NCBI GenBank assembly: GCA_036924855.1
Contig: JBAGRP010000001.1
Coordinates: forward strand, 4,030,001 to 4,094,000
Length of the DNA stretch: 64,000 nt
Direction: 5' to 3'
Source of the DNA: Nitrobacteraceae bacterium AZCC 2146
GTDB taxonomy: Bacteria; Pseudomonadota; Alphaproteobacteria; Rhizobiales; Xanthobacteraceae
The translations under genes and the position numbers were made by a program. Each line of letters opens with the position of its first letter. Position 1 is the first letter of the stretch. Of the stretch, positions 2,137-64,000 are shown piece after piece. Below the pieces are notes generated by a model. It did not search any database. It was given only the letters and a program-made list of their open reading frames with translations, and had not been told where the DNA came from.

Positions 2137-2150
2137 TGGCGGAGAGAGTG
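2137..2150 (-). other. att-core-like 3' end of tRNA-Ser
   Basis: The 14 bases TGGCGGAGAGAGTG are the reverse complement of the usual 3' end of a bacterial tRNA-Ser gene including CCA. The rest of a tRNA (T-arm, anticodon arm) is absent on both sides, so this is not a tRNA gene. It sits about 160 bp upstream of the integrase start, where an attachment site would be expected. A coincidental match cannot be fully excluded. Confidence 0.55.
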
Positions 2151-30968: not shown

Positions 30969-31336
30969 TTAGCCCTCCTTTCACAATGAGGGCTGGCACC
31001 GCTCTGCTACATTTACCGTTGAACGGCCACATCCCACTTTCGTGGAAACCACCTTGCCGCAGTGAGGCAGGTTGGTGAAGGTGCCAGCCTTCGTCGAGAT
31101 GCAACTCCTATTTATTGTCGGGCGTGGTGTATTGCAAGCACGTTTCAAAAAAATGCAAGGTGCCATCTGCATCGTGATAGTCTCTCGCAGTAGGGGGCAC
31201 GGCACCTACCGCGTAATCGGGCACCGAGCTTAAGGGCTTCACCTTGGCTGCCATAGGTAGCTATTACGACGCATCTATTGTCGATTTCTCTGAAACACGA
31301 GGCTGGGGAGCGCCGATTATTGGGAAACCGTTAAAA
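30969..31336. other. Intergenic region
   Basis: I see no convincing gene. Short minus-strand frames here are Cys/Thr-rich without recognisable features. The segment separates divergent transcription units and probably carries both promoters; no clear -35/-10 pair was identified. Confidence 0.4.
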
Positions 31337-54570: not shown

Positions 54571-57500
54571 TTACACGATCCATATATCATGCGAGGTCAG
54601 CGGCGTCGTGACACCGGTCAGCGTCACGGATGCGTCGTGGCCGAGGTCGATGACGGTGTCATGACCGACGGTGTGGAAGGAAAGATGAGCGAAGTCAGTC
54701 ACGACGGTCGAGTCGATCTGAATGACGTCATGGCCCGCAGAATCCCCGGGCTTGAAATTGTTGATGATGTCGTGCCCGGACGTTTGCTTGAAGACGAATG
54801 TATCTCCGCCGGAGCTGTTCATCACGTCGTTCGCCGATGTAGACGTCAACGTCACACCTGACGCATAGGCCGTCATGGTGTGGGAACCATCGTTATTGTC
54901 AAAGGTCGATGCGACTCTGTGCCCCGACGCATCCAGCACATCGTGTCGCGCCTCATAGGCCTGCCCTGTGATCCCGAACGTATCGACCTCCCGCGTGCCA
55001 TCGGCGTGTCGATGAGTTTCGGAAGTCAGGCTGCCGTCCGAAGCGTAGCTGGACTGCAGATAGGAGCCGTCCTTCTGCGTCACCGTCTGCTGGGCGATGT
55101 GGCCGAGGCTGTCGTACTGATCCAGCGTCCGGACGCCGTCGGTGCCGACCGTCTGTTTCAGGGCCAGCGTGCCGTCTTCGTGAAACTGCTCGATCAGAAT
55201 GCTGTGACCTGAAACGTCGCGAATGCTGTGCTCGGACGTATAAGTCTTGCCGACGATCCCGTAGGTGTAGATGTCGCGCGAGCCATCGGCATGCCGGAGG
55301 GTTTCGGCGGTCAGGCTGCCGTCTGCGCCGTAGTTGGACTGCACGTAAGAGCCGTCCTTCTGCGTCACAGTCTCCTGGCCGAGATGGCCAAGGGCGTCAT
55401 ATCGATCGAGCGTCGTGGCGCCGCTGGCGTCGACAGCCTGCTTCATGACCAGCGAACCATCGTCGCGGAAGCCTTCGATCAGCACGCTGTGCCCCGAGGC
55501 ATCGGTGACCGTATGCAGGGAGGTGTAGTCGGTGCCAACGATACCGTAGCTGTAGATGTCGCGCGACCCGTCGGCGTGCCGGATCGTCTCGCCGGTTTCA
55601 GATCCCGCCGCATTGAAGGTGAACTGATCGAACGAGCCGTCGGCATAATTCTTTGCAAATGTTGTGAGATGGCCCGCGGTGTCATAGCCCGTGATATCGA
55701 CCGAGCCATCGCCGTTGACGGCCTGCCTGAAGGCGAGATCGCCGTCCGCAAAAAAGCGCTCGATCAGCGTGGTATGGCCGCTGGCGTTGATGACGTCATG
55801 CTCGGACGTATACTCCTTGCCGGCAATTGCAGAACTGTAGACGTCGCGCGAGCCGTCGGCATGGCTAACCGTTTCGCTTGTGATGTTTCCGGCGCTGTCG
55901 GTCGTCTGAATCTGGTACGAGTCGCCGGCGGAAAGGCCGGATTGGATCGCCGCAGGCGCGGCAGCGCCGATCGTGACGTCCGCGAACTTCAGGAATTCGA
56001 TATTTGTCAGGTGATCGGTGCCGTCGCGGCCCGCCATCCGGTCGCTGACGTCAATCTGGTTTCCGACCCGGCTGAAGGTGTAATCGCTGACCTTGCCCGA
56101 GAACACCGCCGTATCGCTTCCATCGCCGCCATCGATGATATCGTCGCCGATGCCGCCGGCGATCACGTCGTTGTCGCTCGATGCACCGAAGAACCAGTCC
56201 TGATGGTTCGTCGTGTCGAAGTGGATGCTGCGGACATAGAGGTCGAAGGTGCCCGGCGAGCTGGCGTTGGTGCCATCCGCCGGCAGCAGGGCGACACCGT
56301 TGATCGAAACGTCCTTGATATGCAGCGCCCGCCCCGAGGTGGAGTTGGCCAGCGAGATATCGACGCTGGTGATGGCGTCCGGATTGTTGAAGCTCACCGT
56401 GAAGGTCTGATACCCCGACGGATCCGTCGCCGGCTTGAATTCGAGCAATCCGGACACAGCCTGCCCGTTGACCAGAAGCTGCGCCTGCGCGCCGGTGCCG
56501 CCGACGACGGAACCATATCCAGTCAGGGTTATCGTCGTCGTCGCTAGCCTTCCGGCCGTGGCGGGACCGCCGGTGATGACATCGTTTCCGGCGCCGCCGT
56601 GGATGACGTCATTGCCGAGCCCGCTGTTGATCGTGTCATTGCCCCGACCGAGATCGATGGTGTCGGCAATCGCCGAGCCGGTCACGGAGAGGTTGGGCAC
56701 GGCGCCGTCGCCATGGAAGTATTGCGAGACCACGGTCGCTGCAGGTTTTCCCATCACCGAATAGCCAGTGGCAGAATACTGGTTGTTGAGATCCCATTGC
56801 CAGAGTTCGACGCCCTTCAGCCAGCTGCCGCCATGGGCGGTCCAGACCTGGAAGAAGGCGTTGTAGGCATCTGCCTGTTCGCCCACGTCGGCGGTGCCGC
56901 CGGACGTCCAGGCTCCCGGGCGGATGGCGGTGCCGTCGAGGCTGCGATAGCCGACCTCGGTCATCAGCACGGGTTTGCCGTATTGCTCGGACAGCCCGTG
57001 AAGGAAATCGACCGGGGATTTGTTCTGGAATGCCGTTGCATAATATGGATTGAACGGCACCTCGGTCCAGGCATGGACCAGATCCTGCACCGTCGGCGTA
57101 TTGCTGGAGGTCAGCGGCGGGTAGGTGTTCACGCCGATGGTGTCGACCTGATCCCAGAAGCTGACCTTGGAGGCCTCGTCCGTCGCCGCGGCGTAGGTCA
57201 GTTCCCCGTGATAGACCTCGCGAACCGCCGATATCAGGTCGGTCCAGTAGCCACGATAGGCCTGACCCGACAGGCTGCTCATTTCATTGCCGAGCGCGAA
57301 CGTCTCGACGCCGCCGGCCTGCGCGATGGTGGCAAGGTGCACAATTTCGGTTTTGTAGGAGGCAAAGAAGGAACTGACGTCGGTGGGAGCCAGGCCGGAT
57401 GACGCCGTTCCATTGAGTGTGGAAATCGCCGGCTTGAACAGCACCGAAAGTCCCGCAGCGTGCGCGGCACTAAAGCCTGCCAGCAGGGTTGCATCGCTTT

Positions 57501-57702
57501 CGGTTTTGCCGGGATCGGCAAATACGGCGTTGCTGGTTCCGCTCTGGGTCCAGATGCGCGCGGTCAGTTCGATCGAGTTCGAACCGAGCGATGCGATGGA
57601 TTGAAATGCCTGATTGGCGGAGGCGCTGGCAAATTGCCCGTTCCACTCGGAAAGCGCACCGAAGCCTTGAACATCGAAGATATTTGCCACATGGAACTCC
57701 AT
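54571..57702 (-). CDS. RTX-type secreted protein with glycosidase-like N-terminus
   Basis: A 1043-aa protein without an N-terminal signal. Residues about 1-330 form a TIM-barrel hydrolase-like domain (SIELTARIWTQSG; FALGNEMSSLSGQ with a candidate acid/base Glu; IGVNTYPP; VLMTEVGYRS with a candidate nucleophile), reminiscent of GH113-like enzymes. Next come RTX repeats (GNDTINSGLGNDVIHGGAGN), a CBM60-like beta domain (TITLTGYGSVVGG ... ALHIKDVSINGVAL), more RTX (GGIGDDIIDGGDGSDTAVF), four 95-aa repeats (HADGSRDIYSYGIVG...) and a C-terminal RTX-like end (GGDTFVFKQTSGHDIINNF). It is probably exported by a type I system using the C-terminus. No transporter is nearby. Substrate unknown. Confidence 0.8.
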   Translation of the reverse strand: MEFHVANIFDVQGFGALSEWNGQFASASANQAFQSIASLGSNSIELTARIWTQSGTSNAVFADPGKTESDATLLAGFSAAHAAGLSVLFKPAISTLNGTASSGLAPTDVSSFFASYKTEIVHLATIAQAGGVETFALGNEMSSLSGQAYRGYWTDLISAVREVYHGELTYAAATDEASKVSFWDQVDTIGVNTYPPLTSSNTPTVQDLVHAWTEVPFNPYYATAFQNKSPVDFLHGLSEQYGKPVLMTEVGYRSLDGTAIRPGAWTSGGTADVGEQADAYNAFFQVWTAHGGSWLKGVELWQWDLNNQYSATGYSVMGKPAATVVSQYFHGDGAVPNLSVTGSAIADTIDLGRGNDTINSGLGNDVIHGGAGNDVITGGPATAGRLATTTITLTGYGSVVGGTGAQAQLLVNGQAVSGLLEFKPATDPSGYQTFTVSFNNPDAITSVDISLANSTSGRALHIKDVSINGVALLPADGTNASSPGTFDLYVRSIHFDTTNHQDWFFGASSDNDVIAGGIGDDIIDGGDGSDTAVFSGKVSDYTFSRVGNQIDVSDRMAGRDGTDHLTNIEFLKFADVTIGAAAPAAIQSGLSAGDSYQIQTTDSAGNITSETVSHADGSRDVYSSAIAGKEYTSEHDVINASGHTTLIERFFADGDLAFRQAVNGDGSVDITGYDTAGHLTTFAKNYADGSFDQFTFNAAGSETGETIRHADGSRDIYSYGIVGTDYTSLHTVTDASGHSVLIEGFRDDGSLVMKQAVDASGATTLDRYDALGHLGQETVTQKDGSYVQSNYGADGSLTAETLRHADGSRDIYTYGIVGKTYTSEHSIRDVSGHSILIEQFHEDGTLALKQTVGTDGVRTLDQYDSLGHIAQQTVTQKDGSYLQSSYASDGSLTSETHRHADGTREVDTFGITGQAYEARHDVLDASGHRVASTFDNNDGSHTMTAYASGVTLTSTSANDVMNSSGGDTFVFKQTSGHDIINNFKPGDSAGHDVIQIDSTVVTDFAHLSFHTVGHDTVIDLGHDASVTLTGVTTPLTSHDIWIV
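54980..56000 (-). repeat. 285-bp tandem repeats in the RTX gene
   Basis: The codons for HADG(S/T)R(D/E)(I/V) recur near 54985, 55270, 55555 and 55840, each 285 bp apart. This makes four 95-aa units (HADGSRDIY ... SGHxxLIExFxxDG ... YDxxGH ... KDGSYxQS). The units have diverged more than those of tpsA, suggesting older expansion. Confidence 0.8.
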
Positions 57703-59736: not shown

Positions 59737-61062
59737 TCAACTAACCGGCAGCACGCGACCACCCGCGTATAGCTCTCGAAGAATGCCAATGAGAGTGTAA
59801 AACGAGAGAATGCTCGCATAGGCCTGGATATGTTTATGCTTCGCACCGTCTCCGAAATCCGCAACGCCCTTTATGCCCAGCACTCCAGGAGGTCGGCCTA
59901 CACATTTTTGAGCCGCCGTGAATACGCCATAAAGCTCCATTTCTAGACCCACCGCAGACGGGTGACGCTTAATTATCTCATCGATCTGTGCCGAATCTGC
60001 TATCACGCTTGATCCTGACACAACCATTCCGTATTTGAGCTCAGGTGTTTGCCGAATCGATTCGCCATAAGCCTCTCGCAGCTTTCGAGACCCCGCTGAC
60101 TTTAAGAAGGTTGCAAAAATCGGGACGATCGATTCGCTAGCTGTCTCAATAGTCGCAGAAAGAACCGGGGCAATCGCACCATCTACAGTTCGAATGTTAG
60201 CTCTGTTGCGAAAGAGTCGCTCCTTTTCTTTGCCGTACTCCAAATACTTCCCCTCTTCCCAGCATGCACACTCTCTCGCAATCAACACATCGCCAAACAG
60301 AGCCGGGCTGGAAGATCTCTCATGATTGAACCCGCACGCCATCCCGAGCATAGAGACAATTCTTGGACGTAGAAGGCTTATGGCTTGGCTGGTGAGGACC
60401 GCTGCTGATGCGATTCCCATCTCTCCTATGCAAATTAGCGTCGTCCTGAGGCTCCGACCGCCTTCGAAAGTCATCCTGCCAGTAAGCGTCCGATGCGTTG
60501 GGAAGTAAGGACTATTTTTGGAGGGATCAGACTCCCAATCCATTTTTTCAGAAATCGGCTTAAATTCATTTTCGTAACGGGCCACTACGATCAGCAAGTC
60601 GGTCTGATAATTGTTGCTGATAAACTGAACTGAGGCCGTCTTCGACTTGATCAGGTAAATAATCTTTCCTGCAATTCGATCAGCCCAATCTTCAGTCTCG
60701 AACGAAAACAACTCCAGAGCGAGGAGGCTCTCCGAATAATACGCTCGCTCAGTTTCAGCAACTGCGCTATGTTGAGTTAGTCCAATTATATGCGGTACAG
60801 GCGTAAGCTCTCCGGCCTGCATCATGGATAGCAGCGTTCGTGAATTCTCAGCGCTGACGGTTCCCGCTGCAACCGGTATCAAAAGATCAAGAACAACAAG
60901 ATCGAATGTACTTTCTGTAAGGGTTCTAACAGCAGAATTATACTCGTCCGCCCAAACAAATTTGCACGAAATGTGACTTAGGCGCACCTCTAAGAGGGCC
61001 ACGATCCGCTGATACTTTTCCGCGGAATCTTCGACTATCAAAACACGAAACTCGACATTCAC
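59737..61062 (-). CDS. dtcC: DtcC-like effector: receiver + nucleoside-phosphorylase domain
   Basis: A 441-aa fusion. Residues 1-125 form a receiver: FRVLIVEDSAEK (E11, D12), LVVLDLLIP with phosphoacceptor D59, HIIGLTQHS. Residues about 150-441 form a PNP/UDP-phosphorylase-fold domain: LICIGEMGIASAAVLTSQAI, SMLGMACGF, FGDVLIARE, AVGLEMELYGVF (the E-M-E ribose/base site) and LGIKGVADFGD. In Detocs systems this effector, once phosphorylated, cleaves ATP to adenine and ribose triphosphate and halts phage growth. The GTG start overlaps the stop of the receiver gene (GTGA). Assignment rests on domain architecture and gene order recalled from the published Detocs family. Confidence 0.85.
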   Translation of the reverse strand: MNVEFRVLIVEDSAEKYQRIVALLEVRLSHISCKFVWADEYNSAVRTLTESTFDLVVLDLLIPVAAGTVSAENSRTLLSMMQAGELTPVPHIIGLTQHSAVAETERAYYSESLLALELFSFETEDWADRIAGKIIYLIKSKTASVQFISNNYQTDLLIVVARYENEFKPISEKMDWESDPSKNSPYFPTHRTLTGRMTFEGGRSLRTTLICIGEMGIASAAVLTSQAISLLRPRIVSMLGMACGFNHERSSSPALFGDVLIARECACWEEGKYLEYGKEKERLFRNRANIRTVDGAIAPVLSATIETASESIVPIFATFLKSAGSRKLREAYGESIRQTPELKYGMVVSGSSVIADSAQIDEIIKRHPSAVGLEMELYGVFTAAQKCVGRPPGVLGIKGVADFGDGAKHKHIQAYASILSFYTLIGILRELYAGGRVLPVS

Positions 61063-61511
61063 TTTAGAACCCCTTCCACGGCACTAAGAAGATCCGCATG
61101 CCAACTCTGATTGGTGAGATCGACGCGAACAATGCCGCGATATATTCCAGGAAACGCCTGCCTTAAAAGATCATGCAGTTGCTCCACAGAACCAATATTC
61201 AGAAGCCCGCTTTGCGAAAATACTGTGTGCTGCGTTGCGACGATGACCGGATACTTGATTCGCTTTCCCGTCATGTACTGAAGGAGCTCTAGCCCCGCCA
61301 ACGCCTCCTTCTTAACCGCCTGCCCAATGCCTGAAGAGACCTGAAAGGTCATATCAAGAATTACTAAGTCCCACACATCATGCTCAAGCATTGCGTAGGC
61401 GCCAGAGATAGTAGGAATGAACTCAAAATCTGCATCGTATCGTGAACGAATCTGAGCTGCGATCTCATCGCCCTTTAACTTGTTGTCTTCCACAATCAGA
61501 ATGCGAGTCAT
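61059..61511 (-). CDS. dtcB: DtcB-like stand-alone receiver
   Basis: A 150-aa receiver domain: MTRILIVEDNKLKGDEIAAQ (E8, D9), WDLVILDMTFQVSSG (D53), VIVATQHTVFSQSG. No output domain follows. In Detocs the middle protein is thought to take phosphate from the kinase and buffer the pathway so that the effector is not triggered by noise. It overlaps both neighbours by four bases (ATGA and GTGA), the tightest form of operon coupling. The typical Lys-Pro motif of receivers is not evident. Confidence 0.83.
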   Translation of the reverse strand: MTRILIVEDNKLKGDEIAAQIRSRYDADFEFIPTISGAYAMLEHDVWDLVILDMTFQVSSGIGQAVKKEALAGLELLQYMTGKRIKYPVIVATQHTVFSQSGLLNIGSVEQLHDLLRQAFPGIYRGIVRVDLTNQSWHADLLSAVEGVLK

Positions 61512-64000
61512 TGAACAAGCGCGTCCTTAGACACGTCCGGGACTTTGATTTCCACGATGTACTTTCGCGCCTTGGCCGAAAGTGGAGGAAGATTTATATC
61601 TGGAACTGCGGAGAAGACTCGACCGCAAACGCTCTTGATTTTGAAGAATCCCGATTTTGTATCTGTACTTGAGTCGATACGGACATCACTCTTAATGGAC
61701 GCCTGAACCTTAGAATGCTCCTCCGAAATTAAAACGTAATTCTTGTCAGAAAACGTATTAACGCATCGAAAAATGAGATCTTGCCCGTCAATAATGAGAG
61801 AGAACTCAATGTCCGTATTCATCCCAAGCCCACTATGGCGGTACGCATTGGATATCAGATTGTGAACTATTTCTTGGATAGGTTCGAAGAAAATCCCTCG
61901 GATCTTGGGATGAGCTCTTAATTTTAGTATTGTCGCGCCATTGCGCATGTAAGAAGAATATCGAACTTTCAGCTTTTTGAGATCCGAGAATATGAGCGAA
62001 ACCGCCTCAAAATTTATCAGGTCAAGCAGTTGGAAATCTGGCACATCGTTGTCAATTTTGATTAAGCCAAGCCAGCTGCCGACCTCATCGAAAGAAGCGA
62101 GGATATTTTCGTCGAGGAGGTCAAAGAAGACTGGAGTTCTACTTATGTCAGCCTGACGACACTCACGCCGAGCACTAGAAATCTCTGAAATGATCGCTTG
62201 TTTTACGTTTCCAAGTAGCTCTTCGCGCGCTTGTCGTAAGACTTCTTCGACGTTACCGCGAAACACGCCCACGATGTGATCTGCAGCGTCCCAACTATCA
62301 AGGTGCCTCTGCCCTGCAATCTTCGCAACGAGCGCCTGAGATGTATCGTCCTTGACACGGGCGTAAAAACTTCCGTTCCGATCAACGATAAGCCAGAAAT
62401 CTTTATACTGATTCAGTGCTGCTGTTACAAAGTCACGAAGCTGAAGTATTCTATGAGCATTGTCATCGAAGTGACGTAAGATAATGGTGGTAAGATCGCC
62501 GATTTGGTTTTGGTTCAGGTCGGTGCTGGCGATCACTGCTTCGTTGAAAGCCCTCAAGAAGCGAGGAACGATCACGCCATGCCGCAGATTGTTTCCTAGG
62601 GACTGTTCCAGGCTTGACTCTGAATCAAATAGCAGTTGATCAGCGACCTCTTGCGCAAACAGACCTACGACGGTTGAAACCACGCCCGATGTGACTGATG
62701 TTTCGTCCTGATCGGAGAGAACGAAGTCGAACTGGGTCTCGATCGTTCGAGCAATCGTGAACGTTAAGTATTCCCAGTCGATTTTAATTCGGCCAGCTTT
62801 GAAAAGATTATGAAACAGATGCATTCTCAGAAAATGCGCTTCGTCATCAATTATCCTATCGGCTTGTTCAGCAGTCAGGATCAGTTCGCGCTTGGCGATA
62901 TTGGCGAGTTCCATTCGCAGCACACTGGATTGATTGTCCACTCTCGGTAACGATTCTGCTGCAAGCTTGATCGAACTTGGAAAGGCAAACGCTAGTCGCT
63001 CCATCATGCCCTTATCTAGAATCTCCTGCATCAAGCGCTGACGCGATCGAGAGGGAAGAATCCGAAAGCGATGCACGAACTCATTGGTAGCTTTGCGCCG
63101 AGATCGAGAGGGCGGCGAATGAGATCTTGGCAAGATCGCCGCTTCGGTAGCCCCGCCTCGAAGTCTATTTACGAAAGAGCTGATATCGGCGGTAAGTTGA
63201 CCACGACCCCGCGCAAATGCAACCGCAATGAAGCGCTTCACGACAGGAGGCGTCGACATCAGATATTTAATAAAGATAGAATATGGATCTGCATCGATCG
63301 CCGCCAGCTCGAATGCCTCGTGAATAACCTGCCAATCAAGAAACGCGTAAGCGCGCTGATCGACTTGATACAGACGAACGAGTTGTTTTTTGAACACTAC
63401 AAGTTCGCGACGTCGAACTGCTATTGCCATATTAAGGCAAAGGGAAAGTATCTGATTTAGCGGATCAAGATTATTCGAAACCCGATGATACCCAACCGAT
63501 GAGTCGATGCCATTTACAATTACCATAGATGCAAGCACTAACGCATCGGTCTCGGCTTTACTATGAGCGCGGAGGAACTCTCCCTCTAGTCTAAAGCCGC
63601 CCAGAGCCCGTATAGCGACTAACTTTATGAAGAGATCGCTAAGATTCCACATGACGGCTAGTTCATATCCATAAACAAGCTGCCTTTCTGAGATCTCATA
63701 CATTGGGTCGGAGAGAGCTTGAAATACTGAGAGTAGGTCCGGACCTAAGACGGGCCACCAAGCTTGCTTCAACGAATGAAATGCGTTCAGAATGCCATCA
63801 ATATTGCTTATCTTATCCGTATGGAGTCCGAACGCATAAAGGTATCTTACAAATGAGCCAGCTGTCGCTACTCTGGGAGCACCGATCTTTCGGAGAAAAG
63901 ATCTTACCCTGTTTGAAACCGCTCGTTTAAATTCAGAATTTTCGCTGGGTTTCGAAAGTACATGCTCGAAAGCAGCGATGGAATAGTCAGTATCATCAAG
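61508..64000 (-). CDS. dtcA: DtcA-like sensor kinase (partial, 5' end outside window)
   Basis: About 830 codons are visible and the frame remains open to the window edge (reading LDDTDYSIAAFEHVLSKPSE at 64000). The long N-terminal region is helical and soluble, of the repeat-like sensor type, with no transmembrane helix. A GAF/PAS-like stretch (NQYKDFWLIVDRNGSFYARV) precedes the C-terminal ATPase domain: EPIQEIVHNLISNAYRHSGL (N box, about residue 710 of the visible part), LIFRCVNTFSDKNYVL, TKSGFFKIKSVCGRVF. The degenerate G boxes fit Detocs-type kinases. It is predicted to sense phage infection and phosphorylate DtcB/DtcC. Its stop overlaps the dtcB start. Confidence 0.83.
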   Translation of the reverse strand, partial: LDDTDYSIAAFEHVLSKPSENSEFKRAVSNRVRSFLRKIGAPRVATAGSFVRYLYAFGLHTDKISNIDGILNAFHSLKQAWWPVLGPDLLSVFQALSDPMYEISERQLVYGYELAVMWNLSDLFIKLVAIRALGGFRLEGEFLRAHSKAETDALVLASMVIVNGIDSSVGYHRVSNNLDPLNQILSLCLNMAIAVRRRELVVFKKQLVRLYQVDQRAYAFLDWQVIHEAFELAAIDADPYSIFIKYLMSTPPVVKRFIAVAFARGRGQLTADISSFVNRLRGGATEAAILPRSHSPPSRSRRKATNEFVHRFRILPSRSRQRLMQEILDKGMMERLAFAFPSSIKLAAESLPRVDNQSSVLRMELANIAKRELILTAEQADRIIDDEAHFLRMHLFHNLFKAGRIKIDWEYLTFTIARTIETQFDFVLSDQDETSVTSGVVSTVVGLFAQEVADQLLFDSESSLEQSLGNNLRHGVIVPRFLRAFNEAVIASTDLNQNQIGDLTTIILRHFDDNAHRILQLRDFVTAALNQYKDFWLIVDRNGSFYARVKDDTSQALVAKIAGQRHLDSWDAADHIVGVFRGNVEEVLRQAREELLGNVKQAIISEISSARRECRQADISRTPVFFDLLDENILASFDEVGSWLGLIKIDNDVPDFQLLDLINFEAVSLIFSDLKKLKVRYSSYMRNGATILKLRAHPKIRGIFFEPIQEIVHNLISNAYRHSGLGMNTDIEFSLIIDGQDLIFRCVNTFSDKNYVLISEEHSKVQASIKSDVRIDSSTDTKSGFFKIKSVCGRVFSAVPDINLPPLSAKARKYIVEIKVPDVSKDALVQ

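Follow-up and report, generated by a model that had tools for sequence, protein, structure and literature searches.

Published descriptions present Detocs as a defence system of three proteins: DtcA is of the histidine-kinase kind, DtcB acts as a buffer by soaking up phosphate signals, and DtcC is the response regulator (PMC11728103). In the studied system, with its kinase, phosphate buffer and response regulator, ATP is cleaved (PMC11728103, PMC11249213). A published E. coli Detocs island is placed at yjcB-ssb (PMC11728103), and another paper lists PDC-M60 with those candidates from Payne et al. (2021) that are unpublished and go by different names in PADLOC and DefenseFinder (PMC11811056). 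Here we compare with these systems a three-gene operon of Nitrobacteraceae bacterium AZCC 2146, whose genome is one contig of 7.64 Mb. The operon lies at the end of a stretch of 64,000 nucleotides (JBAGRP010000001.1, positions 4,030,001 to 4,094,000), called the window below and used for all positions unless the contig or another locus is named. Very probably it encodes an anti-phage system of the Detocs kind, in a divergent form. Among the titles listed by our full-text literature searches, none deals with such a divergent Detocs clade.

The three genes lie on the minus strand and overlap, just as the initial annotation had described them; all frames are open and the overlap is 4 bases at both junctions. 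The DtcA-like soluble kinase (61508..64000) has a presumed N-terminal sensor and a C-terminal transmitter, and the window holds the C-terminal 830 of its 935 residues; the missing 5' end was retrieved from the continuation of the contig, where the ATG stands at window-equivalent 64315, 315 bases past the window edge. Its stop at 61508 overlaps the ATG (61511) of a DtcB-like stand-alone receiver of 150 residues (61059..61511), whose own stop at 61059 overlaps the GTG (61062) of the DtcC-like effector (59737..61062). The latter has 441 residues, with a receiver that spans residues 5 to roughly 120 and an MTAN/PNP-type nucleosidase from about 150 to 431. Promoter-like and terminator-like sites flanking the operon were no more frequent than in shuffled sequence.

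We file the operon as Detocs because every structural feature of that kind that could be decided is present. The order is kinase, stand-alone receiver, receiver-effector; the kinase appears homologous to those of other receiver-PNP operons and has a phosphoacceptor-type histidine and HATPase-type motifs; the lone receiver keeps its phosphoacceptor and the receiver-PNP effector its nucleosidase residues. Signs of a mobile setting are shared with DtcA-DtcB-DtcC as well. The gene order and effector architecture, already likened to Detocs by the initial annotation, are alike in 9 of 9 plasmid operons and in three close relatives. What sets the operon apart from Detocs is a kinase missed by the PADLOC models, an N-terminal kinase half that aligns with none of the other groups compared, and a separate effector and receiver clade. 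The hits to all three models that had been expected were therefore obtained for two of the three: PDC-M60B (9.8e-21) and PDC-M60C (4e-63) are matched and PDC-M60A is unmatched at E<=1, and because model A fails the operon is not callable as PDC-M60.

In addition to its PADLOC match, the effector matches Pfam PNP_UDP_1 (2.2e-10, above the cut-off) and, below the cut-off, Response_reg (1.2e-5), which upholds the reading of a receiver joined to a PNP/UDP-phosphorylase-like domain. D12, D59 and T96 stand in the receiver and E166, M375-E376 and D402 in the nucleosidase part; the D59, EME (374-376) and GVADFGD (399-405) motifs read there earlier are all retained. Across the 19 of our 20 effectors used for the residue comparison and the effector tree (that of Aliidiomarina, which is not a PNP, was omitted), D12, D59, E166, M375, E376, K398, D402 and K408 are identical. 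The predicted model has an MTAN/PNP fold, which removes the earlier concern that the domain might not be of nucleosidase type, and the nearest solved folds in a fold search are MTAN and futalosine hydrolase, with rows spanning residues 150-437 that cover the nucleosidase part and leave the receiver part uninformed. In an alignment with S. aureus MTAN, the EME of the effector pairs with the EME motif of that enzyme and the D402 region with its SD motif. We rejected the identification as a metabolic MTAN or futalosine hydrolase, since the curated NCBIfam scores fall far below the cut-offs (27.2 against 169 bits and 29.2 against 213 bits) and since, unlike those enzymes, the effector has a receiver joined to it and shares its operon with a kinase gene. 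As for the stand-alone receiver, its E8-D9 acid pair and phosphoacceptor D53 are identical in 20 of 20 operons, with T or S at position 93 (T93 here) in all 20; together with the PDC-M60B match this bears out its earlier assignment, while its Response_reg match (8.2e-6) lies below the cut-off.

The kinase is the divergent component. At full length it matches no Pfam or PADLOC family at E<=1, and the 830 residues inside the window likewise match none in NCBIfam. By comparison, PDC-M60A is matched by all eight plasmid-operon kinases run through PADLOC (eight of nine, Agrobacterium being omitted). Profile-profile comparison with hhalign recovers the relationship. The clade of four kinases to which this one belongs aligns with 16 Detocs-type kinases at E=3.5e-18 (probability 99.0); the 442 aligned columns lie entirely within the C-terminal half, and six controls (one reversed, five column-shuffled) gave E values of 0.22-1. 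This kinase alone against nine Detocs-type kinases gives E=2e-7 (probability 93.7), and the C-terminal half of the clade against the pooled group of nine gives E=1.7e-17. All 20 kinases, two of them twice, carry an H-box-like motif in which [LIV][SAG] is separated by two or three residues from [LIVM][RK]H, and its histidine is invariant in the alignments of the nine plasmid kinases and of the four clade kinases. Here the segment reads LGNNLRHG, with L577-R578-H579-G580. Together the profile-profile match and the conserved motif indicate that the transmitter is homologous to those of Detocs-type kinases and that H579 is its likely phosphoacceptor, so the suspicion that this kinase might be unrelated to DtcA does not hold.

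Farther along there are an HATPase-like N-box, N819-x3-N823-A-x2-H-S, and an SGFFK segment at 888-892. N819, N823, S888, G889 and K892 are invariant across the four clade kinases and would fit an N-box and a glycine-rich lid. The initial annotation had called the protein an HATPase kinase. Profile-profile homology and weak HATPase_c matches in that region of two of the three close relatives (values of 0.025 and 0.014, both below the cut-off; the two relatives are G012 and Devosia, with no such match in Brevundimonas) favour that name, and direct Pfam support at E<=1 was not obtained. Sequence searches of the PDB returned nothing for this kinase, eight sequences for the nine Detocs-type kinases and one for the clade alignment at E<=1, the best of them an unconvincing 0.18.

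The N-terminal half tells a different story from the transmitter. We compared 17 of the 20 kinases half by half, cut 130 residues before the histidine (Arcobacter, Sphingobium RC1 and G123 were omitted for their short frames). The N-terminal half of the clade aligns with none of eight groups (E 0.035-0.65), a result to be read with the caution that small alignments limit such comparisons and that helical repeats can drift past recognition. Among the seven other groups, C-terminal halves align at E<1e-3 in 17 of 21 pairs and N-terminal halves in 7 of 21, from which the sensor appears to be the part that diversifies. DtcA has a TPR-type sensor region. At E<=1 no TPR family was found in this kinase, in eight other kinases, or in the E. 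coli kinase of locus L059, which is annotated as a TPR protein. A structure model of 830 of the 935 residues, made with two relatives in the input, is mostly helical in its N-terminal half. Judged from these comparisons, the receivers, the effector and the transmitter of the kinase are conserved in the clade and its sensor half is unrecognisable; that the clade has a different sensor is a reading, not proof. A separate Detocs-type operon in genome G293 (L034:2291-5482) has a kinase of 1063 residues that barely matches PDC-M60A (0.0015). Its N-terminal half could be aligned with none of the other groups compared, and this kinase may perhaps represent a further sensor type.

Four operons share the divergent kinase type and the same three genes: the source operon, that of G012 (L033), and those of Brevundimonas sp. 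MYb52 (L040) and Devosia sp. CJK-A8-3 (L041). The gene order is the same, but the kinases of the three relatives are only 22-27% identical to that of the source; PDC-M60A reaches 0.012 with the Devosia kinase and nothing at E<=1 with the G012 and Brevundimonas ones. Trees unite the four effectors with support of 100/99 and the four receivers with 90/97, to be read with long-branch warnings for G293, G012, NGR, Kpast and G123 in the effector tree and for G293, v050, Aliid, NGR and others in the receiver tree, where Aliid meets the clade. The clade effectors have 441, 442, 444 and 435 residues, against 390-414 in the nine plasmid records.

The presence of these operons is patchy. The effector was found in 1 of 18 genomes of the genus, the source genome itself. 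The kinase query found 2 of 397 genomes of the order (source and G012), and an alignment of these two kinases recovered the same two when 385 genomes from the class were searched. In the family of G012 it matched two genomes out of 199, namely G012 and, with a fragment that has internal stops, G827. The Brevundimonas and Devosia operons were added, among the matches listed, by a receiver-based scan of genome contigs with a two-row alignment; it gave at least 595 pattern matches and at least six loci, made up of these two clade operons, L042 and three generic receivers. As these counts are a lower bound, the clade may well have further members. A single-protein scan of genome contigs with the effector gave 63 pattern matches and no confirmed one, and a receiver scan of viral contigs confirmed none. 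The effector scan of viral contigs gave six loci, three of which are full operons with ordinary kinases.

At E<=1e-10, PDC-M60C has matches in 17 genomes out of 398 from the phylum; five of these matches cover the receiver start of the model and the other 12 only its later part. A tblastn search of plasmids gave 58 matching records, all below 60% identity, and the order kinase, receiver, receiver-PNP was seen in all nine that were opened (E. coli, Sinorhizobium medicae, S. fredii, Klebsiella pasteurii, K. pneumoniae, two Sphingobium, Arcobacter and Agrobacterium); in Arcobacter (L026) a 495-residue annotated kinase frame lies behind a 638-residue frame, as if split. We looked for a link between PDC-M60 and the published E. 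coli island by opening four E. coli chromosomal regions of 10 matching records; they occupy three different sites, and yjcB-ssb is not among these. A gene for a DUF4231 protein stands directly 3' of the effector in the E. coli plasmid (L004:7229-7681), in Agrobacterium (L029:6421-6912) and in Klebsiella pneumoniae (L030:6271-6753). The L042 locus of Aliidiomarina shirensis (L042:4506-5696) is an operon with an ordinary Detocs-type kinase in which a receiver is joined to an alpha/beta-hydrolase-like effector instead of a PNP (Hydrolase_4 0.0095, below the cut-off; a GHSFG motif and a hydrophobic C-terminus). In genome G185 a protein of 2052 residues (L039:6748-12906) matches the nucleosidase part only and has a different PNP-bearing architecture.

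The base composition changes at the operon. The guanine plus cytosine (GC) content is 45.8-48.9% in the four 1-kb blocks of 60001-64000 and 57.4-63.4% in the preceding five blocks, and a tyrosine integrase (442 residues; Phage_integrase 1.6e-17) and a tRNA-Ser lie 9-10 kb beyond the kinase start. The low GC, the presence in a single genome of the genus, the integrase and the tRNA-Ser fit mobile cargo. For this copy we did not find the defence-island position that the initial annotation had assumed: five proteins encoded between the kinase and the integrase have no convincing PADLOC match (best PDC-S29, 0.0022; the effector-side neighbours were not run). The decayed recombinase said to adjoin the operon comes down to a weak zinc-ribbon match of 0.0019, below the cut-off. 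Elsewhere, the Brevundimonas operon adjoins a HEPN/nucleotidyltransferase protein and an MkoC-like protein (1.5e-65), which we take to be of the Mokosh type, and one Klebsiella/E. coli operon type adjoins a TIR-domain protein.

In the most economical reading, the operon would couple sensing through a phosphorelay to ATP cleavage, with a putative anti-phage activity. The helical N-terminal half of the kinase would sense a sign of phage infection, and the C-terminal transmitter, as its conserved residues suggest, would autophosphorylate on H579. The phosphoryl group would pass to D53 of the lone receiver, a sink that takes up stray signal, and, when stimulation is strong, also reach D59 in the receiver part of the effector. 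The phosphorylated effector would then, from its fold and its residues E166, M375/E376 and D402, cut the N-glycosidic bond of an adenine nucleotide, with ATP the first substrate to consider by analogy with the studied Detocs, and infection would be halted. More tentatively, and with somewhat less than even confidence, we suggest that Detocs is a modular alarm, a conserved chassis of transmitter, receiver and effector that has several times acquired an unrelated sensor, and that this clade has one such sensor type, for a phage cue different from that of TPR-type Detocs. The PADLOC kinase models overlook this clade, thus Detocs-type systems may be undercounted wherever all three genes are required.

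Several points weigh against assigning the operon to Detocs. The kinase stays unmatched by every PADLOC PDC-M60A model and by Pfam, and the strong E value of its transmitter arises from pooled profiles; taken against single groups, the C-terminal half of the clade falls below 1e-3 in only three of seven (1.2e-5, 2.4e-12 and 1.1e-5), the other four giving 0.0012-0.028. The kinase model has a mean predicted local distance difference test (pLDDT) score of 44.1, too poor for fold searches. A lysine is commonly present after strand 5 of receivers, and none is conserved at columns 115-118 of the 19 effectors. The identity of PDC-M60 with Detocs is presumed from architecture, and ATP cleavage and phage protection are proposed by homology. 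The five unmatched neighbours on the kinase side belong here too.

Those neighbours would also suit a stress or nutrient response, a two-component system with a metabolic nucleosidase as its output and no role in defence, as would two proteins on the effector side: one of 1043 residues (54571-57702) that combines RTX repeats with a GH113 glycosidase domain (1.4e-41) and, at a greater distance, a GGDEF-EAL protein. We nevertheless consider such a role quite improbable, given the patchy presence of effector and kinase, the low GC, the occurrence of relatives on plasmids and in contigs predicted to be viral, the Brevundimonas copy beside MkoC-like and HEPN genes, and the distance of the effector from the MTAN and futalosine hydrolase cut-offs. 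The substrate is a more serious question. A Detocs-like phosphorelay could drive an effector that acts not on ATP but on another adenine-containing or related nucleotide, such as NAD+, SAM-derived or modified nucleosides; the nearest solved folds are nucleosidases with varied 5' groups, and the clade effectors are longer than the plasmid ones, with low-confidence loops between residues 270 and 297. Set against this are the eight residues identical in all 19 effectors, which give no sign of an altered active site at those positions, and we think it unlikely that the substrate differs. That the operon is a decayed or inactive remnant is harder still to credit: a weak recombinase trace adjoins it and the G827 relative has internal stops, yet the three frames are open, overlap by 4 bases and keep the catalytic-type residues that were checked. 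The assignment to Detocs, with ATP as its first candidate substrate, is what we retain.

The surroundings of the operon hold some further features. Between operon and integrase, window-equivalent 70932-72236 (L002:16932-18236) encodes a 434-residue homologue of the DNA polymerase III beta clamp (DNA_pol3_beta_2 3.2e-13), as if the element carried its own sliding clamp. The genome has three exact copies of the last 14 bases at the 3' end of the tRNA-Ser (in the tRNA, at window 2137-2150 and at contig position 3886784, 145 kb farther out). All three are on the same strand; the opposite strand has no copy, and a control sequence gave none. Three such copies on the same strand lead us to suspect tandem insertions, and they are possible attachment scars of tandem islands. 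Tests of the flanks found no clean empty site: the sequence to the left of the most distant copy contains dispersed repeats, and its counterpart in congeners is not adjacent to the tRNA. Elsewhere in the window there is a SAM-I/IV riboswitch at 30999-31107 (42 bits, the gathering score being 41.1), and positions 140-1408, which have an identical second copy at contig 1940882-1942150, are probably an insertion sequence.

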